Shown: positions 7,481-43,800 of the stretch, piece after piece | Layout: every line of letters starts with the position of its first letter | Numbering within the stretch: position 1 is the stretch's first letter | From: Deltaproteobacteria bacterium | GTDB lineage: Bacteria; Myxococcota_A; Polyangia; JAAYKL01 | DNA length: 64,000 nucleotides | NCBI GenBank assembly: GCA_016935665.1 | Contig: JAFGQN010000148.1 | Location: forward strand, 1 to 64,000 | Direction of reading: 5' to 3' | The notes under the pieces: model-generated | Databases searched by the model: none | What the model saw: the letters and a program-made list of their open reading frames with translations, nothing else | Told to the model about the DNA's origin: nothing | Position numbers and translations under genes: made by a program

Positions 7481-10400
7481 TTAGAGAGGAGCAGCGACGA
7501 CGCCAACCGCATCTATAACCAGGGTGCCGCCAACGACTTTGATCTTCACAGTATGGACATCGTTGTCGAGGTTGCGCAGGGTGTAGGTCTGGGTAAAATC
7601 GCCACATTTTGCAGTGCTGGCAGATGGTTCCTTTATATCGCCATCGACGGTGACTTCCAGTTTGGCGGAGCCGTCGTTGGGTCCCAGAATATCGAGGCCA
7701 ACCCCGGAAAATGTAAATTCCATCGTTGAACCGCTGCCGATGCTGGTGGAGAGTGAACGCTGGTAGTTGTACATGCTTTTGCCGTTCGCATGGGACCATC
7801 CACCTTCATATTTCAGTTTTACCGAGGGTGGGTCGGACAAATCGTGCATTTCGAGATTGTCCAGCAGTTCCGAGTAATATGGCGGTTGACCATCGATGGC
7901 TTCCACTTTCAGATTGTCAAAAAGCGTGTGATAATACCCACTGGCGAGATCGATTCGTCCGGAAAGTCTTGGCGTCGGATCTGTGAACGTGTTGATTTCC
8001 TCATGGTCAATCAGGGCCGTTATTTTGTTGCCCACCACTTCAAGCGCAATGTTGTGCCATGCATCAAACGCCGTATCGAAACCGGAGATTGTTGTGCCTC
8101 CCGATCCCGTGGCGACATTGCCCGAGGCCACCGAGTTGCCATCCACCCACATGGACCATCCCCCATCGTACCAGAATTTCAACATGTAAGGTGTGCCACT
8201 CAGTGTGTGGGAATTTCCGCCGCCCTGCTGACGCGCGCCAACGGCCGCGTAGTTGTCGCCTCCCTCCGTGCCATTGTGTTCAAATGACACATCCACGCTC
8301 ACCTTATAGTTCATCCAGCGATTGTCCCCAATACCGGTAATGGGGTCGCCGTTGTTCCATGTGGCGCCAAGACCCATTAACGAACCGTCCAGCTGCTGCC
8401 GCAGGACATAATTGTCGTTGCCCGCAGGCAGATACGCTTCGAATGCACCATTGCGGTCACTGGTGTACCTTGGGATAAGCCCGCTGTTGCTACCTCGGGA
8501 GTCTATGTAACTTTCGTCTCCGTCAATTTTTCCGCCGTCTGCAAAAATAGGGACCGATAAATCCGAGTAGTCAAAATCGTCTGCATACAGAATCGTATCG
8601 GATGTATCCAGCGCGTCACCTGTGGCATTGGTATCGAGTACGTTGCGCTCACCTTCCACGGGAAGCGGTGTGTGATGTGCCACATCATTCCAGTTGACCA
8701 GTGATGAAGCGGTGATGACCGAATACGGTTTAACTTTGATGGTGTATGCACCACTTCCGTCTGCCGCCAGGTTGCACAGGTATTTCATGTAATTGCTGTT
8801 GAACGCCTTTCCTGCATCCGCAGCACGGGTTTCCCATATTTCAAGTTCAGGAGCATTGGAAAATGCCATATTTGCGGTTTCGATTCGATAGATCCGTTCA
8901 TACTCGCTGTCGTTCATGAGGATCGAAGAAAAGTGGGTCCCATCGGGGGCGGCAAGGGTCATGTAGTTTGGCCGTCCGTTGCGACCGTTAATGGGATTGG
9001 TCCCGGTGGCGCCCGAAGCACTGGCCCTGGGGATGACACGCCAGATTCCCTTTGTATTGCCGTCATTTTCCCATCCCGTTTTGGCAAACCAGCTGAAGTG
9101 CCTTAGTATTTGCAGACCCGCATCATAGTGTATCCATCCAGACCAGGGGTCTCTGGCGCTGAGTAACTCCTTAAAGGAATACTGACCGCCTTCGTAAAAA
9201 GAACCAATAGCCGGCTGATAAATAAAGTGAGTTCGATGAGAATTGACAAACCCTTTAATGATTGTGTTTCCCATTTCCAGTGGTCCGTATGTGCCACCAA
9301 TTCCCGTTCCCGCCACCGACGGATCCTTCATATTGTTGTTGGGACGGAATGCGCTGTTGCTGAATGTTGCCTGCGCTTCGCTGTTCCATATCTCTTTATC
9401 GTAGTCCTGGGCGAGTTTTTTAAAATTGCCGGACGCATCATCATCGGTGTTGTAGTGGTAACCTGCGACGGAAACCGCGTTTCGCAGAGCCGTATCAGTG
9501 ATCATTGCGCCACCAAATGAGCCCAGGCCCGCTTCGTCGGAAATAATAATCTGAATACTGTTATACAGCTGTTGTTCGGTTGCATCGGCAAATCCCGTGT
9601 TGTCCGATTTGACACGGGAGGCGTAGTCTTTGGTCCAATTGATATTGGGGCCCCGTTCGTTTTCACCCGGGTTTACGTAGTTTATCATGTATCCGTAAGA
9701 CCGATATGCGGCAAGGATGGTGTTTTTAAACCACGTGTAAATCTTGTCGTTGTTGTTTGCCCATGCGGGTGCGTGCCAGCGCAGAATACTCACTTTCAGA
9801 TTGGGATTAATCCTTCTGGCATCTGCTGCCAGCTGAAATCCGGGATGACGCGCAACGTTTGCCGCTTCGCCTGCCAATCTCATGGTGCACGGGTCAGGCC
9901 CGGTTGATGTATTTCTGTCATTGCCCATCTCAATTTTCACATGCGTCATAATTGGAAGGTCGCCACCGAATAGAATCTGAAGGAACTGTTGATATTTTTT
10001 CGGATGCGCAGCCTTGTAATCCATTAACAGGGCACTGGTGCCGTTGGCACTGAGCACGCCAAATCCTTTAAAGGTCAGTCCGTGTGTATTGTCCACCTTA
10101 ATGTCATTGCCATTGACAACTATTGTTGCATCCGGAGTCCCGGCGTTTATTGGCTCGCAGGCGATAGGTTCCTCTGGAACAACAACCTCGATTTCAGTGT
10201 CTGAATCGGCGTCACCATCCGAATCGCCGTCGCCATCCGTGTCTGTGTCCGAATCGCCATCCGAATCCGTATCTGAATCCGAGTCATTATCGGTGTCGCC
10301 ATCGGTATCGGAATCACTATCCGTGTCAGTGTCGGTATCACCATCGCCGTCGGTGTCGCTGTCTGCATCACTGTATGTATTCGTGTCAGAGTCGTCCGAT

Positions 10401-10507
10401 GTCTCCGTGTCGGGCGTGTTGCCGGATGAGTTGTCCGATGAACATCCCGATGTCGACAGCATCACGGTTGCAAGTATTAATGGAATCGCAATTTCAATTG
10501 GTCTCAT
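7481..10507 (-). CDS. GH59-type galactosidase (galactocerebrosidase-like) lipoprotein
   Basis: The ATG at 10507 is chosen because GGAGG stands 7-11 bases upstream and the protein then starts with a signal ending in STSGC (Cys22). Upstream in-frame codons would bury that signal. An unusually long Asp/Ser/Gly/Thr linker covers residues about 39-104. The catalytic part resembles GH59: LTFKGFGVLSANGTSALL, HVKIEMGND, INPNLKVSILRWHAPAW. E284 in ENERGP is the likely acid/base and E377 in WNSEAQ the likely nucleophile. About residues 700-900 resemble the lectin-like domain that closes GH59 enzymes (NYKVSVDVSF, GTPYMLKFWYDGGW, WHNIALEVVGNKITALI). A further beta-sandwich of about 120 residues ends the protein. 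GH59 members are galactosidases; the plant substrate here is not known. At 1008 residues it is longer than usual because of linker and extra module. Confidence 0.82.
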   Translation of the reverse strand: MRPIEIAIPLILATVMLSTSGCSSDNSSGNTPDTETSDDSDTNTYSDADSDTDGDGDTDTDTDSDSDTDGDTDNDSDSDTDSDGDSDTDTDGDGDSDGDADSDTEIEVVVPEEPIACEPINAGTPDATIVVNGNDIKVDNTHGLTFKGFGVLSANGTSALLMDYKAAHPKKYQQFLQILFGGDLPIMTHVKIEMGNDRNTSTGPDPCTMRLAGEAANVARHPGFQLAADARRINPNLKVSILRWHAPAWANNNDKIYTWFKNTILAAYRSYGYMINYVNPGENERGPNINWTKDYASRVKSDNTGFADATEQQLYNSIQIIISDEAGLGSFGGAMITDTALRNAVSVAGYHYNTDDDASGNFKKLAQDYDKEIWNSEAQATFSNSAFRPNNNMKDPSVAGTGIGGTYGPLEMGNTIIKGFVNSHRTHFIYQPAIGSFYEGGQYSFKELLSARDPWSGWIHYDAGLQILRHFSWFAKTGWENDGNTKGIWRVIPRASASGATGTNPINGRNGRPNYMTLAAPDGTHFSSILMNDSEYERIYRIETANMAFSNAPELEIWETRAADAGKAFNSNYMKYLCNLAADGSGAYTIKVKPYSVITASSLVNWNDVAHHTPLPVEGERNVLDTNATGDALDTSDTILYADDFDYSDLSVPIFADGGKIDGDESYIDSRGSNSGLIPRYTSDRNGAFEAYLPAGNDNYVLRQQLDGSLMGLGATWNNGDPITGIGDNRWMNYKVSVDVSFEHNGTEGGDNYAAVGARQQGGGNSHTLSGTPYMLKFWYDGGWSMWVDGNSVASGNVATGSGGTTISGFDTAFDAWHNIALEVVGNKITALIDHEEINTFTDPTPRLSGRIDLASGYYHTLFDNLKVEAIDGQPPYYSELLDNLEMHDLSDPPSVKLKYEGGWSHANGKSMYNYQRSLSTSIGSGSTMEFTFSGVGLDILGPNDGSAKLEVTVDGDIKEPSASTAKCGDFTQTYTLRNLDNDVHTVKIKVVGGTLVIDAVGVVAAPL
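10196..10393 (-). repeat. Asp-Ser/Gly/Thr linker repeat, GH59 protein
   Basis: This is the longest acidic linker in the window, about 66 residues of alternating Asp with Ser, Thr, Gly or Ala between the lipidated N-terminus and the GH59 domain. The plus strand reads as a Ser/Pro/Glu-rich shadow. Confidence 0.85.
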
Positions 10508-11024
10508 TATATATATCCTCCGGAAGTCCTTAGCTGGTTCCATATTAAAGGAGTCTGTCTCGTCAGTGTATTGTATTCGTGAAAAAGGGGCGGATTCAGT
10601 CAAAATTATATCACCAAATGATTGTTCAATTTGCTTACATATGGCGTGCATCTCAGAATGGATTCAGCAAATATCCGGGGAACAAAGCAGTCGCCGCCAT
10701 TTGCAATTCACGTCACGAAGAGTTACATTACAGCTATTCAAAAGTGGGCTGTTTATTTAAGTAAAACCGTCAATGGTTTTGCAGAAAGGTGACGGTATGG
10801 ATGTTGCAACGTCTTCTAATGCCGATAACTTCAAGGACGTATTATGGTCGCTGATTGCGGAGGTTGTGCCAGACGGTCGACATCAATGTAGACACCGAAT
10901 CGTAAAAATAACTCTGGACGAAGCGGGCATTGGCATTCCGGTTCCGCAGCGGTATGTGCATTTTGATGAAAGGTTTGTAAAAGCCATGAAGTCGACCTGG
11001 GCTGGTTTGAGGCCCTTTTATCGG
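10508..11024. other. Intergenic region, 517 bp
   Basis: This stretch separates the GH59 start from the nitroreductase stop. The GH59 leader and promoter should lie at its low end. A short inverted repeat AAAACC/GGTTTT with a 6-base loop lies at 10763-10780 and has no strong T-run. The upper half contains a plus-strand MscS-like remnant, listed separately. No intact gene is supported. Confidence 0.5.
10797..10990 (+). pseudogene. C-terminal remnant of an MscS-type channel gene
   Basis: In the plus strand at about 10914-10976 the frame reads LDEAGIGIPVPQRYVHFDER. This closely follows the C-terminal motif of small-conductance mechanosensitive channels (alDEAGIeIPfPQR-vh). About 35 preceding residues (DNFKDVLWSLIAEVV) have the look of a decayed MscS C-terminal domain. 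No membrane segments or start precede it, and the frame runs without a stop into the antisense of the nitroreductase gene. I interpret it as the tail of a lost channel gene. The motif match is from memory of the family and needs a profile search. Confidence 0.45.
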
Positions 11025-11930: not shown

Positions 11931-12446
11931 ATGGATTGGGAACAGCTAATAACGATTGCGCCGTTTAAGTGGGAATCGGTGGGGGTAGTGTTGCTGTGCG
12001 GCATTGTGATTGGTTTTGAGCGGCAGCTTCGGGGCAAGCCGGTGGGAATTCGAACGGCGTCGCTTATCGCTCTGGGTACCTATATTTTTACGGCGGCCGC
12101 AGTGGCGGTGAACACCGAGGAATCGGATCCCTCGCGGATTATCGGACAGGTGGTTACCGGCGTCGGATTTTTGGGGGCTGGTGTCATGCTTTCAAAAGAT
12201 GGTGTTGTGATAGGGGTGACATCCGCCGCAACCATCTGGGTGTTGGCGGCCATTGGTGTGGTGGTGGCAGTGGCATCCCCCTGGACAGCCATTAAGCTGG
12301 CACTACTGGTGATTGGAATTCTTTACGGTGTGGAATTGCTCGAAACGTACAGCGCCGCGCTCACTCGGGGCGTTCATTCCCGATATCGCAATTGGCGGGG
12401 CTCCCCGCAGAATGAGGAATCCGGGACCCAATCTTCGGATGAATAA
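11931..12446 (+). CDS. MgtC/SapB family membrane protein
   Basis: A 171-residue inner-membrane protein with four to five hydrophobic segments across residues about 15-145. The MgtC/SapB signature is clear: LLCGIVIGFERQLRGKPVGIRT, then GQVVTGVGFLGAGVML and GVTSAATIWVLAAIGV. The family is tied to magnesium limitation, membrane ATP synthase modulation or general stress in various bacteria; the short forms like this lack the ACT-like cytoplasmic tail of full MgtC. It is divergent from the nitroreductase and stands alone. The ATG at 11931 follows AAGGAG at a slightly long spacing. No Mg-sensing leader is recognised upstream. Confidence 0.88.
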   Translation: MDWEQLITIAPFKWESVGVVLLCGIVIGFERQLRGKPVGIRTASLIALGTYIFTAAAVAVNTEESDPSRIIGQVVTGVGFLGAGVMLSKDGVVIGVTSAATIWVLAAIGVVVAVASPWTAIKLALLVIGILYGVELLETYSAALTRGVHSRYRNWRGSPQNEESGTQSSDE

Positions 12447-13128: not shown

Positions 13129-13863
13129 ATGAAGAAGTTTCTGACACTCGATATTTTACCGCAACCGGACGATACCACCTGCGGGCCCACCTGTTTGCAT
13201 GCCCTTTATCGGTATTTCGGTGATGAGATTCCCTTGCAGGATGTGATTGCGGAGGTGCAGTCGTTGAAAGGAGGGGGGACGCTGGGCGTCATGTTGGCCA
13301 ACCACGCACTTCGCCGCGGATACCGGGCGTCCATTTACACCTATAACCTTATGATTTTCGATCCCACCTGGTTTTTACCCGAAGCAGATATTCAGCGCAA
13401 GCTGGCAAAGCGGCTCGAAGTCATTCACGACGCCAAACAGAAAAAGGCCATTCGAGCCTATCAGTCGTTCCTTATTAACGGTGGAAAGATTCACTTTGTG
13501 GATTTAACGAGAAATCTGTTACGACGATTTTTAAAATCCGGAAGACCCATCCTCACCGGACTGAATTCCACTTTTTTGTACCGCGCACCACGTGTCGACG
13601 AAGCCTCCATGAAAAACGACGATATTGGCGGAGAAGTGGTGGGGCATTTTGTGGTGCTTTCCGGATATGACCAGATGAACAAAACAGTGCACGTCAGTGA
13701 TCCATACGCGCGCAATCCGTTTGCCAACCAATCTTACGAACTTCCCATTGACCGGGTTATCGGCGCCATTCTCCTGGGGGTGATGACCTATGACGCCAAT
13801 TTTCTCATCATCGATCCCGGAAACAATGAACCCAGACACAATCGAAAGGCTGTATCTGTATGA
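13129..13863 (+). CDS. C39-like papain-fold cysteine protease, operon leader
   Basis: A 244-residue cytoplasmic protein (no signal peptide) of the C39/papain-like fold. Gln12 and Cys18 in DDTTCGPTC, His173 in GHFVVLSGYD and Asp191 in VSDPY form the expected catalytic set. There is no ABC-transporter portion, so it is not a bacteriocin exporter-protease. Its stop overlaps the ATG of the RimK-type gene by four bases (13860-13863), and that gene overlaps the next likewise, so all four enzymes are one operon. In such amidoligase clusters the protease or transglutaminase-like member is predicted to trim or hydrolyse the amide product or a precursor; this is inference. A GGGGGAACG stretch precedes the ATG. 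Confidence 0.78.
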   Translation: MKKFLTLDILPQPDDTTCGPTCLHALYRYFGDEIPLQDVIAEVQSLKGGGTLGVMLANHALRRGYRASIYTYNLMIFDPTWFLPEADIQRKLAKRLEVIHDAKQKKAIRAYQSFLINGGKIHFVDLTRNLLRRFLKSGRPILTGLNSTFLYRAPRVDEASMKNDDIGGEVVGHFVVLSGYDQMNKTVHVSDPYARNPFANQSYELPIDRVIGAILLGVMTYDANFLIIDPGNNEPRHNRKAVSV

Positions 13864-15335
13864 AAATTTTGTTGGTGGTGGCCAACTCAAAAAAATGGCC
13901 CCTCAGTATCCCCGACTGTGAAGTGGTGTCGGCGCGCAAATACCTGACAGAACCCATTTTCTCAAGGTTGAGTGGCGTGCGCGTATTCAATCTGATGCAT
14001 CCGTGTCGATACCAGAGCCAGGGATACTACGTATCGTTGCTGGCCGAGGCCCGAGGACACAGGCCCGTTCCCAATATTACGACATTAAGGGATTTGCATA
14101 CACCGGCCATGGTTCGTATGACGGATGCCGCCATTAGCGAACTGGTGCAGAAGTCGCTGACAGGTATCCGATCGCAGCGCTTTGAGTTAAGCATTTATTT
14201 TGGACGCAATCTGGCCCGCAAATACGACAAACTGTGCCGTGAGCTGTTCAACCGCTTTCACGCGCATTTTTTAAGGGCGGTATTTGTACGCAATAAGGAC
14301 ATCTGGACGCTTCAGAACATCAGTCCAATCAGCATCAATGAAATTCCACAAAGTCATCATGACTTTGTAGAGGAGGCGGCGGGAAACTATTTTACCAAAG
14401 CCGGTTATCGTCAGCGAAAGGTGCAGCAGTTTCGATATTCGCTGGCCATCCTGCATCACCCGGACGAAAAGGAAGCGCCGTCAAATGCGGCGGCCCTTAA
14501 AAAGTTTATTCGCGCCGGGCAGAAACTGGGACTGGATACCCAGCTTATCACTAAAGAGGATTTTGGACGCCTTTCCGAGTATGACGCGCTGTTTATTCGT
14601 GAAACAACAAATGTGAACAATCATACGTTTCGCTTTGCCCGTTATGCCGAAGCGGATGGGCTGGTAGTCATCGATGATCCGCAATCCATTATTCGCTGCG
14701 CCAACAAAGTTTTTTTGGCGGAGCTTTTGGAACACCACCGTATCCCCACACCGAAAACCATGATAGTGCACAGGGACAATGTGGACTTGATTACGCATAC
14801 GTTGGGATTCCCCTGTGTATTGAAGCAGCCGGACAGTGCATTTTCTGTTGGTGTGAAAAAAGTCGAACGTGCAGACACGCTGGCACTGGTGGCTGAACAG
14901 ATGCTTGAAAAATCGGAGCTTATTATTGCGCAGGAATATCTGCCCACTGATTTTGATTGGCGAGTCGGTATTCTTGATTCGAAGGTGATTTTTGTCTGCC
15001 GCTATTATATGGCCAGAGACCACTGGCAAATTGTCAAGCGGGATCAACATGGGGAAAAACAGGAGGGCGACGCCGATACGTTGAATCCCAATGATGCGCC
15101 GGATGAAGTACTTCGCATTGCTTTGAAAGCAGCTGCACCCATCGGCAACGGACTGTATGGTGTGGATGTGAAGCAGGTGGGTAGCAGATTTTACGTCATT
15201 GAAGTGAATGACAATCCCAATATTGACGCAGGGCTGGAAGATGCGTTGTTGCAGGATCGGCTCTATCATCAGGTGATGTCCATTTTTTTACAGCGAATCG
15301 AAGAAAAGAAACTGGTGTCGAGGGCAGCCAAATGA
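13860..15335 (+). CDS. RimK-type ATP-grasp ligase with RLAN-like N-terminal domain
   Basis: A 491-residue ATP-dependent carboxylate-amine/thiol ligase. Residues 1 to about 190 match the N-terminal domain found only with certain RimK-like ligases (RLAN), including YVSLLAEARGHRPVPNI, YFGRNLARKYDKL and a region rich in aromatic and basic residues. Residues about 200-480 form the ATP-grasp: ETTNVNNHTFRFARYAE, PTPKTMIVHRDN, GFPCVLKQPDSAFSVGVKKV (nucleotide-binding Lys), IIAQEYLPTDFDWRVGILD and IEVNDNPNIDAG with the metal-binding E and N. The substrate is unknown; RimK relatives add glutamate or other amino acids to carboxylates. Overlaps of 4 bp on both sides show translational coupling with the protease and the GCS2-type ligase. 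Confidence 0.85.
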   Translation: MKILLVVANSKKWPLSIPDCEVVSARKYLTEPIFSRLSGVRVFNLMHPCRYQSQGYYVSLLAEARGHRPVPNITTLRDLHTPAMVRMTDAAISELVQKSLTGIRSQRFELSIYFGRNLARKYDKLCRELFNRFHAHFLRAVFVRNKDIWTLQNISPISINEIPQSHHDFVEEAAGNYFTKAGYRQRKVQQFRYSLAILHHPDEKEAPSNAAALKKFIRAGQKLGLDTQLITKEDFGRLSEYDALFIRETTNVNNHTFRFARYAEADGLVVIDDPQSIIRCANKVFLAELLEHHRIPTPKTMIVHRDNVDLITHTLGFPCVLKQPDSAFSVGVKKVERADTLALVAEQMLEKSELIIAQEYLPTDFDWRVGILDSKVIFVCRYYMARDHWQIVKRDQHGEKQEGDADTLNPNDAPDEVLRIALKAAAPIGNGLYGVDVKQVGSRFYVIEVNDNPNIDAGLEDALLQDRLYHQVMSIFLQRIEEKKLVSRAAK

Positions 15336-16576
15336 ATCAACAGCGGGAGTCTTATCATTTGTTTCAGGCGTATGGTCTGGAGCTGGAGTACATGATTGTG
15401 GACAAAAACTCGATGAATGTCCTGCCCATTTCCGATTGGTTGCTTGCCGAGCTGGGAGGCGCTGCTGGCAGTCGGGAAGTGGAAAGAGGGTCCGTGGTTT
15501 GGTCCAACGAACTGGCGATGCATGTCATCGAAGTAAAGGGCAATGGCCCGGTGTCGGACATCACGTGTCTGCACCAACCCATCATAAAGGACATTCGGGA
15601 AATCAACCGGATTCTTCTTAAAAAAAACGCATGCCTCATGGGGGGCGCCGTGCATCCCTGGATGAATCCGGATACCGATACCGGATTGTGGAATTTCGAG
15701 GACGGACCAATATACAGCGCCCTTGACCGCGTGTTTGGCTGTCGGGGACACGGATGGTTCAATCTGCAGTCGGCACATTTGAATCTTCCTTTCTGCGGTG
15801 ACGACGAGTTTGCGCGACTTCACGCGGCAATTCGGATGGTATTGCCCATTATCCCCGCACTGGCTGCATCATCGCCCTTTCTGGATGGTCAGGACGCGGG
15901 CGTTGCCGATGCGCGGCTTCGCGTGTACAGTCAGCATTGCAATCGGCTGCCGGAAGCCATGGGGGAGGTGATTCCCGAACCTGTTTCCGGTCGACAACAG
16001 TATGAGGACACGATTTTAAATCCTTTGTATGAGGCGCTGTTGCCGCGGGATCCGGACGGCATTCTGTGTCATGAATGGAGCAACGCCCGTGGCGCCATTG
16101 CCCGGTTCGACCGAAATACAATTGAAATACGTTTGATAGATGTTCAGGAACACCCTGGAATGGATGAAGGGGTTGTGTGTGCTGTGGCCGCTGCCGTCCG
16201 CCTTTTGACAGAGCAGGCGTTGGACGATATGGAGGCGATGAACGCCTTTGATTCCGCCGGATTGCGGCGGATTCTAATGGAAACCATTGCTTATGCGGAA
16301 AATGCCCTCATCACAGACTCCGCGTATTTAAGGCTTTTGACGGGAAACGAAATCGCCTGCAGCGCGTCGCGATTGTGGCGGCAAATTCTGGCACGTTGTA
16401 TGGCGTTTCACGGCCGGGAGCGCAATACGGCGGAGTGGATTATCGATCATGGCACTCTTGCCTCCCGGATGAGGCAATTTGCGAATCAGGGGATGAGAGA
16501 ACTCGCAAATCGTCTTTGTCGTTCGCTTGAAACGGGTCAGGCGTTGTGGCCCAATGGAATAATGAATGGACAATAA
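15332..16576 (+). CDS. GCS2-type glutamate-cysteine ligase family enzyme
   Basis: A 414-residue member of the glutamate-cysteine ligase 2 (carboxylate-amine ligase, YbdK-like) family with the glutamine-synthetase fold. YGLELEYMIVD at the N-terminus supplies the Glu residues that bind metal/ATP, EVKGNGPV follows, and GAIARFDRNTIEIRLIDVQEHPGMD carries the late Arg/Glu motif. It would form an amide bond between a carboxylate, probably glutamate-like, and an amine using ATP. It starts inside the stop of the ATP-grasp gene and overlaps the next gene by 11 bp. Two different amide-forming enzymes side by side point to a short peptide-like metabolite made in the cytoplasm rather than glutathione alone. 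Confidence 0.85.
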   Translation: MNQQRESYHLFQAYGLELEYMIVDKNSMNVLPISDWLLAELGGAAGSREVERGSVVWSNELAMHVIEVKGNGPVSDITCLHQPIIKDIREINRILLKKNACLMGGAVHPWMNPDTDTGLWNFEDGPIYSALDRVFGCRGHGWFNLQSAHLNLPFCGDDEFARLHAAIRMVLPIIPALAASSPFLDGQDAGVADARLRVYSQHCNRLPEAMGEVIPEPVSGRQQYEDTILNPLYEALLPRDPDGILCHEWSNARGAIARFDRNTIEIRLIDVQEHPGMDEGVVCAVAAAVRLLTEQALDDMEAMNAFDSAGLRRILMETIAYAENALITDSAYLRLLTGNEIACSASRLWRQILARCMAFHGRERNTAEWIIDHGTLASRMRQFANQGMRELANRLCRSLETGQALWPNGIMNGQ

Positions 16577-17366
16577 AGGCATTTTATGGTCGATACAACA
16601 GGGAAGCGGACCCCTCCTCGCCACTGCCATTCATCACGGACACAGTCTGCGCGCCGAGGTGGCCAATCGGCTGTACATCAGCGAGTTGGAACGATTGCGG
16701 GAAGAAGATCCCCATACCGGTGAGCTGACGACAATTGTCGATTGTCAGCTGATAGTTCATCGGTCCCGTTTCGAGATGGACATCAATCGCGACAGAAGTA
16801 ACGCCGTATACCGGGTCCCGGCCGACGCGTGGGGTTTGAGAGTATGGCAATCCCCCCCGGACATAGCGTTGATTCGTCGTTCTCTGGCACAGTACGATGC
16901 TTTTTATCAGATGCTTCACGGCACTCTGAACACCATGCTGCGCACGCATCCCATTGTGGTTGTGCTCGATTTTCACAGCTACAATCATCGCCGATCCGGA
17001 CCGGACCGCCCGGCCGACAACCCATTGCGGGATCCGGAGATAGAGATTGGCACCGATACAATGGATCGTCAGCGATGGGCGCCCGTCGTGGACAACTTTA
17101 AGCAGGCTCTTCAACGCTATACATTTAACGGACGTAAACTGGATGTGCGGGAGAATGTCAAGTTTGGCAGCGGATGGATGAGTCGCTGGATTCATTCTCA
17201 CTTTCCATATAGTGTATGCGCCATATCAGTGGAGTTGAAAAAACTGTTCATGGACGAGTGGACTGGCAAACTGTATCCACAGATGCTCAACGATTACCGG
17301 CAGGCCTTCGCGTCCACCATTCCTGGTCTTATTCAAATCTGTCAAACGTTCCCCAGTGATGTCTGA
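16566..17366 (+). CDS. N-formylglutamate amidohydrolase family hydrolase
   Basis: A 266-residue zinc amidohydrolase of the N-formylglutamate deformylase family. Landmarks are AIHHGH (metal ligand), SRFEMDINRDRSNAVY, VVVLDFHSYNHRR (second metal site) and ISVELKKLFMDEWTG with the catalytic Glu. The start overlaps the ligase by 11 bp, and it ends the four-gene operon. Histidine-degradation genes are not nearby, so deformylation of formylglutamate is unlikely to be its main job. In this setting I infer cleavage or release of a glutamyl- or aspartyl-type amide produced by the two ligases. Transcription termination after it is not evident from a hairpin. Confidence 0.82.
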   Translation: MDNKGILWSIQQGSGPLLATAIHHGHSLRAEVANRLYISELERLREEDPHTGELTTIVDCQLIVHRSRFEMDINRDRSNAVYRVPADAWGLRVWQSPPDIALIRRSLAQYDAFYQMLHGTLNTMLRTHPIVVVLDFHSYNHRRSGPDRPADNPLRDPEIEIGTDTMDRQRWAPVVDNFKQALQRYTFNGRKLDVRENVKFGSGWMSRWIHSHFPYSVCAISVELKKLFMDEWTGKLYPQMLNDYRQAFASTIPGLIQICQTFPSDV

Positions 17367-17779: not shown

Positions 17780-19816
17780 ATGACGCGCAATATTTTGTTA
17801 CCGATGATAGCATTTTTCACGTTCGCCTTTATGGCCTGTGGGTCCGACGATACCAAGCCCGGCGAAGAAGGTGAGAGCCGAAAAGACACGGGCAAAAAAG
17901 AAGATGTCTCCACCGAAAAAGAGACTGACGTGAAAGAAAAGGACACAGATGATAAGGACACGGGCCCGGAAAAGCAAGTGGACACAGATGATACAGATAC
18001 TGCCGTTTGCGGTGACGGATTACTCGGTAAAAATGAAGCCTGCGATGATGCCAACACCAATGATGAAGATGGGTGTGCCGGCGATTGCAAGCATGTGGAA
18101 GAAGGCTGGTCCTGTTATCCCCCCGGCAGAAAATGTCATCAAATGGCCATTTGCGGCGACGGCAAAGTGTTGAGTCCGGAGATGTGTGACGACAAAAATC
18201 ATGAATCCGGCGATGGCTGCAGTGAGATGTGTCAGATTGAATTTGGGTTCAAATGCGACGGAGAACCCAGCAAATGTGGGCCTTCCACCTGTGGGGACGA
18301 AAAACAGGAAGGGGCGGAAAGCTGCGACGACGGCAATACGATTCCATTCGACGGCTGCTCCCCTCTGTGCCAAAAGGAACCGGATTGCTCTCAGGGCGAG
18401 TGCGTTTCCGAATGCGGCGATGGATTTATGCTGAACGAGGAATGCGATGACGGCAACAAATTGGATGGGGATGGTTGCTCGTCTGAATGCAAAATTGAAA
18501 AAGGCTACGAATGCGTTCACGATGAGGCCTGTGAAGGTGAGGATTGCACACTGGTTGTCGATGCCATTTATCGCGATTTTTCCAGCAAAGACGACGATTT
18601 CGATGTTGATTGCGAAGGTGAGGAAGCCACCACTGGCCTGGTGGAAGATACCATTGGCGACAACTGGAAACCGGTACTTAAAAAAGATGGCGACAAAGAT
18701 ACGTGCATTAAATCACGCGACTCGTTTAACAAGTGGTACACCACAGAACCCACAAAAGTTGGCAAAATTACACTGTTTCCCGACGGCAACGGCAACTTTG
18801 TGAATCGTTGGGGCGAAGATGGCGAACAATGGTTGTATGTGGCCGAAGAACGACTGAGTTTCTGTGCCAAAGGCCCCGAAGTGGTGGATTGCTACCACGA
18901 AGAGGATGCAGATTGTGACGAGGTATGTCCGGATGTGGTAGAAGAGTATCCGGACTACATTTGTACCTCTCCGTGTCCGGATGACTATGCCAACCGCACC
19001 TGTTTGACCTCTCCCAACCCCGCGACATGCGACGATTGCCCCAACTTTGGGGCCGGAGTGGAGGGGTATGAGTGCGTGAATCCCTGCAGGCAAAACGATA
19101 CAACCCGGGGAATCAGCAACTGGGATGTGTGTGAATATGGGGCGCCGAGAAAACGTTTCGATGGCAATCCGCTGTTTTTCCCGCTGGATGAACTTGGTGC
19201 CGACTCCATCGCCGTTATTCCCCCGGAATACGGCAGCGAGGACGAGGACACCTGGATTTGGCCCGAAGAAGAAGAATTCACCGGCAAAGCAATAAAACAT
19301 AATTTCTTTTTTACCACTGAAATCACATACTGGTTTACCTATGAGGAAGATGAAACCGCTATCCTGAACTTCACCGGCGATGATGACGTTTGGGTGTATG
19401 TTAACGGACAACTCGCAGTGGATCTCGGCGGGTTGCATCCCCCGGAAGATGGCAGTCTTGTAATTGACAAACAGCATAGTTACGGGATGAAAGACGGCAG
19501 TGTTTATCGAATCAACATTTTCCATGCCGAGCGCAAGGTGGAAGGCTCGTCATTCCGGTTGACGCTTGGCGGATTCGATATGTTCAGGAGCTATTGCAAA
19601 GCCGAATGCGGCGATGGCGTGCTGTCGCTGGGTGAGCAGTGTGACGATGGCATAAATGATGGATCATACGGTGGTTGTAACGAAGATTGCACACTGGGCG
19701 CGTTCTGTGGCGATGGTGTCGTACAGGATGATTTCGAAGATTGTGACGATGGCAATTTCACCGACGACGACGACTGTCCCTCTTCCTGTCGAATAATCCT
19801 TATTGAGGTTGAGTAA
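17780..19816 (+). CDS. Fibro-slime and DUF4215 cysteine-rich surface lipoprotein
   Basis: A 678-residue surface protein. The signal ends in FMAC (Cys20), followed by a Lys/Asp/Glu/Thr-rich linker to about residue 75. Then come at least four DUF4215-type repeats of CGDG...E.CDDGN...GDGCS..C pattern up to about 245, and two more at the C-terminus (about 610-670). The middle (about 490-600) fits the fibro-slime domain: FFTTEITYWFTYE, LNFTGDDDVWVYVNGQLAVDLGG, YRINIFHAERKVEGSSF, a PA14-like beta sandwich that may bind carbohydrate or calcium. Such proteins occur in Myxococcota, Fibrobacteres and slime moulds. The role is probably adhesion or surface structure. It is monocistronic by spacing. Confidence 0.85.
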   Translation: MTRNILLPMIAFFTFAFMACGSDDTKPGEEGESRKDTGKKEDVSTEKETDVKEKDTDDKDTGPEKQVDTDDTDTAVCGDGLLGKNEACDDANTNDEDGCAGDCKHVEEGWSCYPPGRKCHQMAICGDGKVLSPEMCDDKNHESGDGCSEMCQIEFGFKCDGEPSKCGPSTCGDEKQEGAESCDDGNTIPFDGCSPLCQKEPDCSQGECVSECGDGFMLNEECDDGNKLDGDGCSSECKIEKGYECVHDEACEGEDCTLVVDAIYRDFSSKDDDFDVDCEGEEATTGLVEDTIGDNWKPVLKKDGDKDTCIKSRDSFNKWYTTEPTKVGKITLFPDGNGNFVNRWGEDGEQWLYVAEERLSFCAKGPEVVDCYHEEDADCDEVCPDVVEEYPDYICTSPCPDDYANRTCLTSPNPATCDDCPNFGAGVEGYECVNPCRQNDTTRGISNWDVCEYGAPRKRFDGNPLFFPLDELGADSIAVIPPEYGSEDEDTWIWPEEEEFTGKAIKHNFFFTTEITYWFTYEEDETAILNFTGDDDVWVYVNGQLAVDLGGLHPPEDGSLVIDKQHSYGMKDGSVYRINIFHAERKVEGSSFRLTLGGFDMFRSYCKAECGDGVLSLGEQCDDGINDGSYGGCNEDCTLGAFCGDGVVQDDFEDCDDGNFTDDDDCPSSCRIILIEVE

Positions 19817-34820: not shown

Positions 34821-37800
34821 ATGACGAACAATTCCGGTACGGATAACAACAGCCAGGTAGATGTAACTGAAGAAGAGGAAATGGAACAATACGAAGACAT
34901 TTCAGCATCCGGCCAGGAGGAAATTGCAGAACCTGAGATTATAGAAGTGAGCAGAGAAGTATCTGATGCGTTGGCGACGGCCATTGAAGCTGCCACCGCT
35001 GCGGAAGAGGAAGGGGCGGAACAGGGAATCAAAGTATGGCAGACCGACGCATGGAATGCGGATCCCGGACATCCTTTGATATTGGAAGCGTTGGAGCGTC
35101 TGTATGCCGATACGCAAAAATGGAGTGGCCTCGCGGATTTCCTGAAACGCATGGGGCGCAAAATTGAAGATGATGGTAAATTCGTCGAAACGCACATGAT
35201 GTTGGCGCGCATTTATGATGAGTACCTGAGCCAGGATGCGATGGTTGTCGCGACCTACCAGGGAATTCTCAAAAAGAAGAAAAATTATCTGCCCGCCCTG
35301 GATGCGGCCATTGAAAAATATGAATCGATGGAGCGCTGGCCGGATTTGGTGAAAATGCTCAAAGCCAAAGGTGAGTTGATTCGAGATAAAGACGAACAGG
35401 TCGAATTGTGGTTGCGGGTTGCCAATCTGTTCATGAATCAGTTTTCCAATCAGGCGGAAGCAATTAAAGCGTTCGAAAAGGTACTCGAAGCGGATTCGGA
35501 ACATCCCGAGGCAATCGATTTTCTGAAGGACATGTATGAGAAGCGTCGCGACTGGAAAAAGCTGATCGACATGATGGATTTGCAAGCGGCGGCCCTGAAC
35601 GACGGACCGGAGAAAATCGACGCACTCGTGGAAATCGCCAGAATGAGCGCCGAACGGCTGAAGAAACCGGAGATCTGCATCGAGCGTTGGGAAGCGGTTC
35701 TCGAACAGGATCCGGAGCACTCCGAGGCACTTGAGGATTTGTCCAATTTTTACGAACGTGCCAGGGAATGGGAGAAGCTGGCGGATGTTCTGGAAAAGAA
35801 AGTTTTGCATGCCGGCAACAGCGATGAACAAAAGGAAATCTATCAAAAGCTGGGCGTCGTTTACGGCGACAAAATAAATGACGATGCCAAAGCGGTTGAG
35901 GTGCTCAAGGCGTTGCTTGATATCGATCCTGATGATCGTCGGGCGCAGGAACAGTTGAAAAAGAGGTATCTGGCTCTTCAGGCATGGGAAGAGTTGGAAG
36001 CCTTTTATGCCGAATCAGAGAAATGGGATGAATTTATCCGTGTTCTCGAGAGAGAGGCCGGTAAAGAAGACGCGGCGCTGGAAGCGAAAGTAGGTCTGTA
36101 CTTTAAAATAGCCGAGCTTCAACGGGAGAAGAAAGAGCGTATCGATAAGACGGCCGAAGCTCTGCAGGAAGTCTTGAAACTGGACCCCACCAATCTGGAC
36201 GCAGCCGAACTGTTGATTCCCATTTACGAGGAAGCCGGAAATGAAGCTGCACTGCTCGCAGATGTCCTTGAAGTAAAGCTGGGGCATATTGACGACGCGA
36301 CAGAAGCCCAGGCGTTGCTGCAACGTATTTCCAAACTTGTGGAGGACGAAGTAGGGGACGCAGAGCGGGCGTTTGCCGGTTTTCTGAAAGCATTCGAAAA
36401 TGAGCCCACCGATGAGATATGCCAGGACGATCTGGAGCGCACCGCAGGAAAAGCAGGGCGTTGGGAAGATGTTTTGGCAGCGTACAGGAGTGCGTATGAA
36501 GCAGCCAAAGGGGATGACAAAATAGATTTGCGAATTCGCATGGCCCGCGTCATGAATGAGGAGCTCGGGCGTTCTGAAGAGGCATTGAAACATTTTGATG
36601 CGATTCTCGAAGAGGACCCCAAGAACGCGAAAGCCATCTATGCGCTTGAGCGTATCTATGCGCAAATGGGTCGGTTCGAGGAACTCCTTGATATTTATGC
36701 CCGTCGTATTGAGATGGCAGCGGATGATGATGAACGCAAGGAGATTTATTACAATCAGGCATTGCTGTGGGAAGAAGAGATTGATGACACGCAGAAGGCC
36801 ATTGATGTGTACAAAAAAATCATCAAGATGGCAGGCGATGAGCAGCGCTCTCTTGCGGCATTGGATAGATTGTATGCGCGAGATGAAAAATGGAGCGATG
36901 TTGCATCGATAATTGAACGTGAGTTGGCAGTCGGCCCTGAGCGAATCGACGACGAGGTTGAGCTGAAATTTCGACTCGGTATGGTCAGCGCCCAGTATTT
37001 GGATGAAACAGCGCGTGCGCTGGAGTGTTTCCGCGAGGTATTGCTGATTGATGCGGGGCATGAAGGGGCTGTCAGCGCTCTGGAGAGCATGCTCGATAAC
37101 AACGATTTTAAAGGCGAAGCTGCCGAGATTCTTGCGCCGTTGTATGAAGAACAGGGACAGTGGGAACAGCTGGTGAAAGCAACCGAAATATTGGTTGAAA
37201 CATCTGATGATAACACTGAGAAATACGATTTGCTGATGAAAGTGGGTGCCATTTGCGGTCATCAACTTGAATCTTCAGAGAATGCCTTTGACGCCTATGC
37301 GCGGGCGTTTATTACGAATCCGGATTATCCGGATGCGCTCGAACAAATGGAAGGCATTGCAGCGATTCTGGATAATTGGAAGGCCCTGGTTGTCATTATG
37401 GAGAAGGGGGCCCGGTCTACAGAAGACAACGATAACAGAAAAGCATTGTGGCTGAAGGCAGCACAGATATTCGATACTCAGCTTGATTCCACCCAATCCG
37501 CTGTGGAGGCCTACAGAAACGCATTGAAGGCAGACATGCAATGTGCCGATGCGATTCTGGCTCTGGAAGATATTTATGGTCGGGAAGAGAAATGGGAGGA
37601 TTTGGTCGAGATTCTGTCGGTGAAAGTGGATGCCGTCACAGACTCTGAGGAAAAACAGGAAATTTACCGGCATATGGCGCGTATTTATGAGGAGATGCTT
37701 GAAAATGCCGACGCTTCAGTGCGCTGCATGCTCGAAATCCTCAATATAGATCCGTCCAATGTCGACGCATTGCAGACTCTCGACAGATTGTTTGTTGTTC

Positions 37801-40800
37801 TGGAAAAATGGACGGATCTTGCAGATAACCTGTCTCAGCAGTTGGGATTGGAGACAGAACCGGATCGGATTATTGAACTGAAACTCCGTTTGGCCGATCT
37901 GCAGGAAAATAAACTCGATGAGATATCGGCAGCTGTGGAGATTTACCGCGAAGTATTGGAGATGGATTCGTCGAGTGATGCTGCAATCGAAGCCCTCGAA
38001 AGAATTTTAGAGAATCCTGAATTCAAAAATGACGTCGCGGCGATTCTCGAACCCCTGTATCGAGACCTTGGTGACTGGCAGAAACTGGTGGGCGTCATCG
38101 AGATTATGGTCGACGCGGAGGAGACAGTTGATCGGCGGGTGGAGTTACTCCATGAAATTGCCAATCTGTACGAAACAGTGGGAGACAATCCCGAGCGCGC
38201 CTTTGCAACCCTGGGACGCGCGCTAAAAGAAGATCCAGAGCAGGAGCGCACGCAGGAGGAGCTGGAACGAATGGCGCGTGTTCTGGATTATTACCGCCAA
38301 TTGGCCGATTTGTATGGCGAGCAGGTTGGGGCTTTGGAGGATACAGATGTTCAGGCGGCATATCATTTGAAGATTGCCGGAATATGTGAAGAACAACTGC
38401 AGGATGTGGCCCGTGCGATTGCGCACTATCGGGAAGTTCTTGCCCTCGATCCCACACATCTGGATGCGGCATCAGCGCTGGAAAGATCGTACCAGATTAA
38501 TGAAGACTATGAGTCTCTGGCCGGAATTTATCTCAAGAAAACCGAGATGGTTCCGGATATGGATGAGCAAAAAGAGTTGCTGTTTAAAGCGTCTCAGATT
38601 TACGAAGAGGTTCTCGAAAACGTTGAAAAGGCCATTGAAGTTTATCAACGCATTTTAGAAATCGATTCTGATGAATTACAGGCAATTAATCAGTTGGAAG
38701 GACTGTTCCTGCGTCTTGAGCGCTGGGACGAGCTGCAGGCCATTTACAATCAGAAGGTTGACCTGGTCGACATGCCGGACGATAAGAAGGAAGTCCTGTA
38801 TGTGCTGGGGGCAATGTACGAGCGCGAATTGAATGACAGTGCACGTGCGATAACCACTTATCAGCGCATCCTCGAATTTGATCCGGATGATTTTCAGGCG
38901 ATATCCAGGTTGGACATGCTTTATGCGGAGGCAGAGGAATGGGAAGATCTCCTGTCAATTCTTGAGCGAGAGATAGAGTTGGTCGTAGACCCGGATGAAT
39001 CCGTTTCATTTAAGTACCGTATTGCTGAACTGTATGTGCGTCATCTTGAGGATGTGGCCCGTGCGGTGGACTATTTAAAGGATATTCTGACGGTCTCTCC
39101 CGATCACGAACCGACAGTGCGGTTGCTTGAGGAACTGGTTGCCGGAGATGCGGAGCCCATGTTGGCTGCCGAAGTTCTGGAGCCCCTGTATCAGGATTTG
39201 GCCGAGTGGCGGAAACTGATTGGGCTCTTTGAAGTGAAACTGAAACACGTTGAAGACGATTGGCAGAAAGTTGAATTGTATCATAAAGCAGCGGAGTTGC
39301 TGCAGAGTGACTTGCATCTGGATTCGCCGGCTGAAGCATTCGAAATGTATGCCAGATCGCTGCAGGTCGAACCTGCCAATGAAATTACATTGGGCCAATT
39401 GGATGCACTGGCGCATACCACAGGCAAATGGGCGGAGCTGGCAAAGATTCTGGATGATAGACTTGAAAATCTTGAGGACGATGAAGCACGCATTGTTCTG
39501 GGGCTCAAAGCAGCCACTGTCTACGAAGTCAGTCTTGACAACATTGAAGCCGCTATTGCGCGATATCAGCGGGTATTGGATGTTGAACCTGATAATCGGG
39601 ACGCTATTTTAAGTCTGGATAAGCTTTATCAGATTGGGGAGCAATGGGACAAACTGGCGGCGATTCTGCAAAAAGAAGCGCTGTTGATGGATGATCCGGA
39701 AGAAAGCCTGAATGTGCAGTTCCGTTTGGGGCAGTTGTACCAGCAGGAACTCCTTGAAATTGAAAAAGCGGTTGAGGTGTATCGCGAAATCCTGGCGGCG
39801 GAGCCCGCATTTGATTCTGCGATTTCTGCTCTGGAATTCCTCTTTACAGAGGGGCATATGAGAGCTGAAATCGTTGAAATTCTGGAGCCACTGTTGCAGA
39901 TGCAAGGGGAGTGGTCGAAGTTGGTTTCCCTTTACCAGCGGCAACTTGAGGTTATTGAAGATCAGGAAGATCGCGTTGCCATGCATCACCGAATAGCTGA
40001 AACGTTTGAAGACAAGCTTCTCGATCCGGTTGAGGCGTTTGGATGGTATTGTCGTGCCTTTGCGCAGGATCCCTACAACGAACGTTCAACAATCGATGTA
40101 GAGCGGTTGGCCGGCGCCACAGATTCATGGAGTGAACTGGCGGATGCCTATGAGCAGTTGTTTGGCACATTTGAAGACGAGGAAACCAAAAAACTGGTGG
40201 CCAAACGCGCCGCTCGCGTCACGGAAGAAGAGTTGCAGGATGCTGCTCGGGCGGAACGCGCATATCGTGCCTGTCTGGAATTGGGAGATGACGATATCGA
40301 AGTTCTGCAGGCGTTAGATCGGATTTACTCTCAGCATATGGAGTGGGAGCATCTGGTTGGCATATTGGATAAATTGTCAAAAGTGGACGAATCTGTTTCT
40401 GAGCAGGTTCAATACATTTTCCGAATGGGGGATGTACTCGAAACACAACTGGACGAAATCGAAAAAGCACGCGTTGCTTTCCACTTAATCGTCGATGAAC
40501 TGGAGCCAACACACACCGAAGCATTGGAGCGACTGGAAACCATTTATGCCAATCTTGAAGATTGGGAATCGCTTTATACAATTTACGAGAAGATGCGGGA
40601 TTGCGCCACCAACGATGCAGACCAGGCGGACCTGTACGCAAAACTGGCCACAATTGCAGCGGATTGTCTCGACAATATTCCTAAAGCCATTGAGTTGTGG
40701 GAAGCTGTCCTTGACACGCTTGGCGAAGATGCGCACGCACTGGAGGCGCTTGGTGATTTGTATGCACGGCAGGAGAACTGGGATGAGTTGGTGGAGGTTT

Positions 40801-43800
40801 TGGAACGCGCGGTGTCCATTGCGGACGACGATGACGCCAGAGTTCGGATTTACAGTCAACTCGGTACAGTTTGGGGTGAGTGTCTCGACAGGGACAGAAC
40901 GGCGCTGGAAAACTGGCAAAACGTGTTGTCCATCGATCTCGAGAATATCCCGGCACTTCAGGCAATTGCCAAAATTTACGAATCCAACCATGAGTGGGAG
41001 GATTTGATTGAAACGCTGGAACGACTGATTGAAGTTGGCATTTCGGTTTTTGAGACCGAAGAAATTAAAGCTTATTATGCCCAGCTCGGAAAAATTCTTG
41101 CCGAGGTTGTGGAACGGCCGCTGGATGCCATAGATGCTTTAAGACGTTCGTTGGACATTGATCCCACAGATTTGAACACCGTTCAATCTCTGGAGACGCT
41201 GTATCGAAGCCAGGAACTCTGGGACGATATGGTGGAAATGCTCGGGCGCAAAGCGGACCTCCTGGAAGGGGACACCCAGATTGAAACCTGGTTGGCACAG
41301 GCATCTGCCATGGAGGAGCTGCTGGAGCAGCCGTTGTTGGCTAAAAAGCCTTACCTGAAGATCCTGATTGCGGCGCCGCTGCACGAACACGCCTTTGAGC
41401 GAACCGTGGAAATTCTGACGGAAGAGGGCGCATTTGACGATTTGATTCAATTGTATTCCGTACGCCTTGAAAATGTCAGCGATGACCAGGCTCAGATTAA
41501 ATTGCTGCACAAAGCGGCGGTGATTTATGAAGAAAAATTGAACCAGGCAGAAAACGCATTCCTGGTGATGCAGCGTGCTTTTGAAATTGATTACTCCAAT
41601 GACGCCACCGGAGATCATCTGGAACGTCTGGCTTCCGAAACTGGCAAATGGCAGGAGCTGCTGGGCGGGTGCAACCAGATTCTGGCGGCAACACAGGACA
41701 CAAAAATTCAAATCGATTTGTGCCTTAAAATTGGTAAATGGTACTCGGCAATTGGAAACCCGGAGTACGCGATTCAATATTATCAGCAAGTGCTGACTCT
41801 GGATGCGAACAACGTCCCGGCGTTGCGGCTCATGGGCGAGTTGTATCGAGGCGCCAAGCAATGGACCGAGCTGGTAGAGGTTTTGAAAAAAGCAGTCAGT
41901 TGCGAGGACAAGCCCGAAAAGAAAAAAGATATTCTGGTCGATCTTGGCGAGATTTATCTGGAGTACATGGAGGATTTCCCGGAAGCGAAGCGCGTCTATC
42001 GGGAAGCTCTGGATATTGATCCGGCGCTGGAACCCGCGTTGCTGGCCCTTGAGCGAATGTTCAAAACGACTGAAAACTGGGAGGAACTGATTCCTGTTCT
42101 TCGCAGAAAAATTGGTGTGCTCGATGAAACGGACACCGAATCGATTATTCGCACCAGACAGCGTATCGCTGAAATATATGAGACGAACCTGGATGAGCTG
42201 GCGAAAGCCACCGAGGAATATAAAGCGAATCTGGATATCGATCCTGGTCATATCCCGTCGTTGAAAGGGCTGGAACGATTATTTGAAAAACGCGAAATGT
42301 GGCAGGATTTGCTCGATATCCTGGAAATTCAGCTCGAATATGCCACCAGTGAAGGTGAGCGCATCGAATTATTACTGAGAATTGCCGGAATGCTTGAGAA
42401 AGAGTTCCGTAAACCAGAAAAAGCAATTGAGCGTCTCGAAGAAGTCGTAATGATCGATCCCACTGAAATTCGCGGTCTGGAGTCGTTGGAACGGTTGTAT
42501 CGCGTGGTACAGAAATGGGATGAGCTTATCGATACTCTGGAAAAACACATTGATGCGACACTTGATAGGGAAGATCGTGTTCCGCTTTTGGAGAATATGG
42601 GTAAAGTTTTTGCGCTTGAGTTGAAGGAAATCGATCGGGCGATGGATACCTATGTTCAGATTCTGGACATTGATCCGGAGAATATTGATGCTCTCGATAA
42701 TCTGGCCAGGATGCAGGTGAAAGCGGAAGACTGGGTCTCTGCCCATGATACATTGAGCCGGTTGGCGCAAACTGTTGAGGATGAGGACAGGCAGGTCGAT
42801 TTGTATTTCCGTCTTGGGGAATTGAATGAAACCCATTTGCAGGATCGCGGCGCGGCTGTTGATCATTTCCGTTCGGCGCTCGATATCAATTCGGGACACT
42901 TGAATACTCTGGCATCATTGTGTGCCATTCACATTGATGAAGGCGAGTGGCTAGCTGCCTGCGAGACACTGGAAATGCAACAGGAACACACCGAAAACAA
43001 ACGGCAAAAATCCAAATTGCAGTACCAGTTGGGTGACTTGTATCGTGACAAACTCAATGATGAGGCAAATGCTATTGAGTGGTTTGAAAAAGCACTTGAA
43101 TCCAACGCTGACAACGAAAAAGCTGCTGAGCCACTTGTCGACGTATACATCGATGCTGAACGGTACGCAGAAGCGGAACGATTGTTGGATATGCTCATTC
43201 GTCTGGGTGGAAAGCGGTCTCCAGAGGAATTGCAACCGCTGCAGACGAAACTGGGCCGCGTTGCAGATAAACTGAACAACCGGGAGAAAGCGCTTAAGGC
43301 TTACCAGTCAGCGTATGATGTGAATCCGCAGCATCTGCCGGCGTTGTTGAATTTGGCAGATTGTTTGTACAGAGCGGAAGAGTGGGATAAAGCATTTAAG
43401 CTATACCAAATGGTATTGGTTCATCACCGTGACGATCGCAGCAAGGATGAAATTGTTGATATTTTCTATCGACTTGGAAATATCAAAGCCAAGGTGAAAG
43501 AGAGAAGAAAAGCGCTGAATATGTTCGACAAAGCGCTGGAAATTGATGGCAATCATGTTCCTACTCTGGAGGCAGTTATCGAACTGCAGGAAGAGCAGAA
43601 GAATTACGAGCAGGTTATCCATTTCAAGAAGATACTTATCGATGCGGTCGAAGAGACTGGAAGACAATTCGAACTGTATGAAGAAATTGGCGATATTTGG
43701 CAGAGCAATCTGAAAAACCCTCAAAAAGCGATTTCTGCATACCAGGAAGCGTGTCACATCGACCCGGATAACAGACCGATTTTGCACAAGTTGCTCCCAT

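Follow-up and report, generated by a model that had tools for sequence, protein, structure and literature searches.

The operon at positions 13129 to 17366 of the window (the whole 64,000-nucleotide stretch analysed) encodes four enzymes that, in our judgement with somewhat better than even confidence, make up a self-contained cytosolic pathway for the synthesis and reversible breakdown of a short peptide-like metabolite derived from glutamate. All four genes lie on the + strand. Gene 1 (13129..13863, 244 aa) encodes a C39-like cysteine hydrolase of predicted papain fold, gene 2 (13860..15335, 491 aa) an RLAN-RimK ATP-grasp carboxylate-amine ligase, gene 3 (15332..16576, 414 aa) a GCS2-fold, glutamate-cysteine-ligase-like amidoligase, and gene 4 (16566..17366, 266 aa) an N-formylglutamate amidohydrolase-like (FGase-type) hydrolase of the subfamily here called FGa. 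The original prediction had described this arrangement, with overlaps of 4, 4 and 11 bp between successive genes, and had assigned each product to its family; the list of open reading frames agreed with the layout, and each protein matched the expected Pfam family above the gathering score. No signal peptide was evident by eye in any of the four proteins, so the set is probably cytosolic. None of them passed a named-family cut-off of NCBIfam. The operon region contained no Rfam element, and promoter and terminator scans of it were uninformative.

We have investigated the conservation of the operon by scanning species genomes with the GCS2 alignment, which gave at least 562 confirmed relatives. 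The neighbourhoods of the best 80 of these loci, those most similar to the query, were then compared. The C39, RLAN-RimK, GCS2 and FGase genes occurred in that order and on one strand in 58 of the 80, ten further loci were missing only the FGase, and the remainder were mostly cut by contig ends; the remoter relatives may lie in other gene contexts. Judging by record titles, the loci belonged to at least eight phyla (Planctomycetota, Acidobacteriota, Bacteroidota, Pseudomonadota, Desulfobacterota, Verrucomicrobiota, Myxococcota and Omnitrophota). The recurrence of the gene order across phyla puts the operon far beyond chance and supports a real, widespread pathway. The co-occurrence elsewhere on which the original prediction depended was thus found in multiple phyla. 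Within the window's genus, the complete set recurs in unchanged order in one genome (G001), and the last three genes are present on a short contig of another (G002). One record carrying the operon is titled as a Klebsiella pneumoniae MAG (L118) and is probably mislabelled.

The two ligase genes were tightly associated. Among 284 genomes of the window's phylum, RLAN was present in 22 and the GCS2 subfamily (counted at E below 1e-40) in 21, with both occurring together in 21/21; the two genes were adjacent on the contig in 20 of these 21, and a single RLAN genome (G067) was without GCS2. RLAN-RimK and GCS2 were fused in one open reading frame in three genomes (L146, L148 and L150, with Pfam support for L146). 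When compared across 61 loci, the four proteins had correlated pairwise distances, with r values of 0.71-0.86, to which shared ancestry contributes, against a largest shuffled value of 0.25. As to mobile elements, one Legionella plasmid carried the RimK, GCS2 and FGase genes, phages gave no match at 1e-20 and viral contigs gave no match. Legionella adelaidensis has three of the four genes, which bear only generic names in the public annotation.

The gene 2 protein contains an RLAN domain (PF14401, 6.6e-43; about residues 1-190) and a RimK-type ATP-grasp domain (PF08443, 6.3e-10; about residues 280-460), in which K283, K322, D436, E448 and N450 were invariant in 94 RLAN-RimK sequences. Enzymes of the RimK ATP-grasp type join a carboxylate to an amino acid. 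The PDB entries most like this ATP-grasp domain were RimK and LysX, and comparison with E. coli RimK gave an hhalign probability of 97%. The scores nevertheless stayed far below the cut-offs for the RimK S6-ligase equivalog (29.9 bits vs. 331), the RimK family model (68.5 vs. 143.4) and glutathione synthase GshB, TIGR01380 (18.3 vs. 299). The predicted model of the RLAN domain (13860-14444; pLDDT 89.1) was partly similar to LysX/ArgX, with a query TM-score of about 0.5-0.58, and RLAN is possibly a degenerate second ATP-grasp-like unit. A tree of 33 RLAN-RimK proteins placed the window sequence with one planctomycete and one acidobacterial sequence from Zodletone metagenomes, apart from the myxococcal sequences of its own class. 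This grouping outside its class suggests that the operon was acquired by horizontal transfer. The trees, together with the myxobacterial repeat protein encoded beside the operon, also suggest that the window's phylum is Myxococcota.

The gene 3 protein matched GCS2 (PF04107, 9.9e-26), a family whose enzymes activate the gamma-carboxylate of glutamate. The motifs E17/E19, N59/E60 and E265/R267 were kept in 97-98 of 98 homologues. Its homology to YbdK was remote (hhalign probability 70%), and neither the YbdK model TIGR02050 (47.3 bits, cut-off 176.4) nor the cyanobacterial GshA model TIGR02048 (25.8 bits, cut-off 249) was reached. Gene 3 was the sole PF04107 match in its own genome, where a search covering PF04107 and PF04262 found no PF04262 ligase. 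The curated cut-offs, taken together with the co-occurrence of the two ligases, led us to reject plain glutathione or S6-modification enzymes, an identity that would have undermined the original prediction.

The gene 1 protein matched Peptidase_C39_2 (PF13529) at 1.9e-11, with 45 bits against a cut-off of 24. The intact Cys-His-Asp triad attributed to it earlier was corroborated by alignment, with Cys18 (13180-13182), His173 (13645-13647) and Asp191 (13699-13701), all on the + strand, being invariant in 63 homologues. Its confidently predicted model (pLDDT 91.7) shows a papain-like fold, and the best PDB matches were the C39 peptidases of PCAT1 and ComA, the pseudomurein endoisopeptidase PeiR and the primitive phytochelatin synthase Alr0975, the latter in a structure with a glutathione acyl-enzyme. 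This resemblance of the predicted fold to C39 peptidases, PeiR and a primitive phytochelatin synthase is new in this analysis; it comes with 8-16% identity and a modest query TM-score of about 0.45-0.50. The match to phytochelatin synthase is one of fold only (8-10% identity), and the Pfam scan of gene 1 gave no phytochelatin-synthase family match. The model permits, without proving it, an action on a gamma-glutamyl peptide or isopeptide bond. The fold match equally covers genuine leader peptidases, leader-peptide cleavage being the usual job of C39 peptidases.

The gene 4 protein matched FGase (PF05013) at 9.3e-19 and scored 28.0 bits against the equivalog of the N-formylglutamate deformylase HutG, whose NCBIfam cut-off is 278.75. 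In the other phyla examined, the operon FGase was of one kind, FGb, and the FGb profile did not report the window FGase. The FGa and FGb types were split at 100/100 in the tree, where the operon FGases of the window's genus-mates clustered with the window protein; the operons closest to it by RLAN (L040 and L041) have the FGb type. That gene 4 of the window genus belongs to a different FGase subfamily is also new here, and the simplest reading is that an FGa-type enzyme took the place of the original FGb. A related FGase lies in the same genome, on contig 98 (G000; L187:1103-4881), where an FGase-GshB fusion is followed by a QEGLA/MATCAP peptidase gene. The window FGase shares 45% identity with the FGase part of this fusion, whose GshB-type domain matched PRK12458 with 447 bits (cut-off 408). 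Another genome (G041) has an FGb operon and, in addition, an FGa gene within a longer, fusion-sized open reading frame. Since the fourth slot is filled from two separate FGase subfamilies, the FGase activity itself seems to be needed by the pathway, although the 10 of 80 loci in which the other three genes stand with no FGase found indicate that it may be dispensable.

The four-gene module is self-contained. Neither clustering of the neighbours of the 80 loci nor a tally of Pfam families in 105 flanking proteins revealed a consistently linked fifth gene, the commonest neighbour family accounting for at most 3 of the 105, and neither a regulator nor a transporter recurred among the neighbours. 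The neighbours were about evenly divided between the strands (52/102 upstream and 49/98 downstream) and were conserved only among Pontibacter species. There, an arginine cluster seen by eye beside the operon was set aside as lineage-specific, and an opposite-strand gene lies between the two in most loci. A link to osmolytes through a mechanosensitive channel was likewise unsupported by the tally. MscS-like genes adjoin the operon at L073:9227-10093 (by Pfam) and L034:6156-6968 (by eye). An MgtC-family gene lies upstream of the operon in the window (11931-12446, by Pfam) and another directly downstream of it in G001 (L032:5467-5988, by eye), that is, on opposite sides in two genomes of the window genus and with no wider pattern. 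Directly downstream of the window operon, 17780-19816 encodes a Fibro-slime/PA14 protein with myxobacterial cysteine-rich acidic repeats. Elsewhere in the window we observed a glycosyl hydrolase family 59 (galactocerebrosidase-like) protein on the minus strand (7481-10651), with a long stretch rich in Asp, Ser, Thr and Gly close to its N-terminus, and a 3487-aa open reading frame consisting mostly of tetratricopeptide repeats (34821-45284).

From these data we infer the substrates, the order of the steps, the roles of the hydrolases and a small-molecule product as follows. By family precedent, the GCS2 enzyme would use ATP to form the first amide bond, by way of the glutamate gamma-carboxylate, and the RLAN-RimK ATP-grasp enzyme would form the second on the GCS2 product. 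The C39 enzyme would then cut, or transfer at, the bond made by RLAN-RimK, possibly as a papain-fold amidase opposing an ATP-grasp synthetase, as in glutathionylspermidine synthetase/amidase, or alternatively in the way a primitive phytochelatin synthase cuts glutathione. The FGase might remove an acyl or glutamyl group, or recycle the product. The original prediction had proposed two amide bonds made in succession on a glutamate-like core, with hydrolases for maturation or turnover, which is a reasonable reading of the families. Linked ligases often work in succession (PMC4431377), and the fusion of RLAN-RimK to GCS2 is as expected for successive steps. We can also put forward, tentatively and with considerable doubt, a bolder version in which the operon makes a novel and widespread gamma-glutamyl tripeptide-like metabolite, either a glutathione/phytochelatin analogue or an osmolyte; the C39 protein would be a phytochelatin-synthase-like transpeptidase/amidase, and the FGase an exchangeable release step that another pathway of this cell, based on GshB, has in common with it.

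A protein target is also possible, since the RimK family includes a protein-modifying enzyme. A protein would in that case receive glutamate or a different amino acid from the ligases and lose it again through the C39 and FGase enzymes. Precedents are RimK, which adds glutamate to ribosomal protein S6, and LysX/ArgX, which work on the carrier protein LysW; this fits an ATP-grasp domain that is nearest to RimK and LysX in the PDB. The pairing of a ligase with a hydrolase is moreover known from RimK and its protease RimB, which act on RpsF (PMC12239564). We nevertheless hold such a modification to be unlikely, because no gene for a target or carrier protein was linked among the clustered neighbours and 105 flanking proteins, and because the score of gene 2 against the S6-ligase model was so low. 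The GCS2 ligase also argues against it, as the substrates of this family are more often small molecules than proteins. The equal number of ligases and hydrolases would suit a catabolic gamma-glutamylation as well, likened to the Puu putrescine pathway, in which an amine or amino acid receives a tag from the ligases and glutamate is freed by the hydrolases, for nitrogen use or detoxification. Gamma-glutamyl amides have precedent in the GCS2 family and the distribution of the operon is wide and patchy, both in keeping with such a role; however, no oxidase, dehydrogenase or transporter was consistently linked, unlike in known amine-use pathways, and we regard this role as improbable.

Gene 3 could instead encode the glutamate-cysteine ligase of the cell and supply the GshB-like protein whose gene lies on the other contig, which would make the operon part of glutathione synthesis. 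Its being the only GCS2 gene of a genome where no PF04262 ligase was found, together with the PRK12458 match of that GshB-like domain, speaks for this. It becomes very improbable when one considers that the GCS2 subfamily tracks RLAN-RimK in every one of the 21 genomes of the phylum sample and scores far under every glutamate-cysteine ligase cut-off, and that the GshB-like protein, being fused to an FGase and beside a QEGLA peptidase, may not make glutathione. Least of all do we expect the product to be a ribosomally made peptide that the ligases modify and the C39 peptidase matures. Leader peptides are the usual targets of C39 peptidases, and ATP-grasp enzymes produce graspetides (PMC8939145), yet the 80 loci showed no ABC transporter or other conserved neighbour among genes of about 90 codons upward. 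The synthesis and turnover of a small glutamate-derived metabolite stays our preferred reading.

That a compact set of four enzymes keeps its gene order from Planctomycetota to Bacteroidota, with ligases that can be fused, is strong evidence for a real pathway, and we found no product of the operon in the literature searched. The operon is present in culturable organisms (many Pontibacter species, Roseivirga and Noviherbaspirillum, with Legionella adelaidensis having three genes), so its product is directly testable. A homologue set is now available for proteins that are annotated generically as "RimK family," "glutamate-cysteine ligase family" or "N-formylglutamate amidohydrolase."

Compared with known systems, the window operon resembles GshA/GshB, GshF and YbdK in that an ATP-grasp ligase follows one of the GCS fold, the two being sometimes fused. 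It differs from glutathione synthesis and YbdK in falling outside the named families by NCBIfam, in having a RimK-like instead of a GshB ATP-grasp enzyme and in its two extra hydrolases. The RimK/RimB system of Pseudomonas, which performs S6 glutamylation, has a homologous ATP-grasp enzyme and the same pairing of ligase and hydrolase, but no RLAN, GCS2 or FGase, and its hydrolase is of another fold. The window C39 protein has a papain-fold match to the phytochelatin synthase Alr0975, which acts on a gamma-glutamyl peptide, and the ligase/amidase pairing of glutathionylspermidine synthetase/amidase offers an analogy; with both, the similarity is remote and structural, without sequence membership. 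The C39 bacteriocin leader peptidases likewise have a Cys-His-Asp triad in a papain fold. They would be expected beside an ABC transporter and a precursor peptide; among neighbouring genes of about 90 codons upward, no transporter recurred.

The FGase-GshB and QEGLA/MATCAP cluster of the same genome resembles the operon in combining an ATP-grasp ligase with an FGa-type FGase and a further peptidase, but its ATP-grasp enzyme is of the glutathione-synthetase type, it has no GCS2 and its peptidase is of the MATCAP family instead of C39. The nearest known arrangement that we found is the pair of a GNAT-C39 (DUF3335) protein and an RLAN-RimK ligase in Azospirillum brasilense Sp7 (L200). There too, RLAN-RimK (45% identity) stands beside a C39-type hydrolase, but an acetyltransferase is fused to the C39 domain and no GCS2 was detected; Pfam found no GNAT domain in the window C39 protein, and the window set carries GCS2 and FGase instead of an acetyltransferase. 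In a genome of the window's family (G010), GNAT, RLAN and RimK occur in one open reading frame (L039:2209-4197), with no GCS2 on the short contig. The predicted amidoligase pathways of the type described by Iyer, Aravind and colleagues are characterized by RLAN fused to a RimK-like ATP-grasp domain, as in gene 2, and by a second ligase or peptidase in a conserved neighbourhood, as in the window operon (58/80 loci; 21/21 genomes). The window operon is a variant of these predicted systems.
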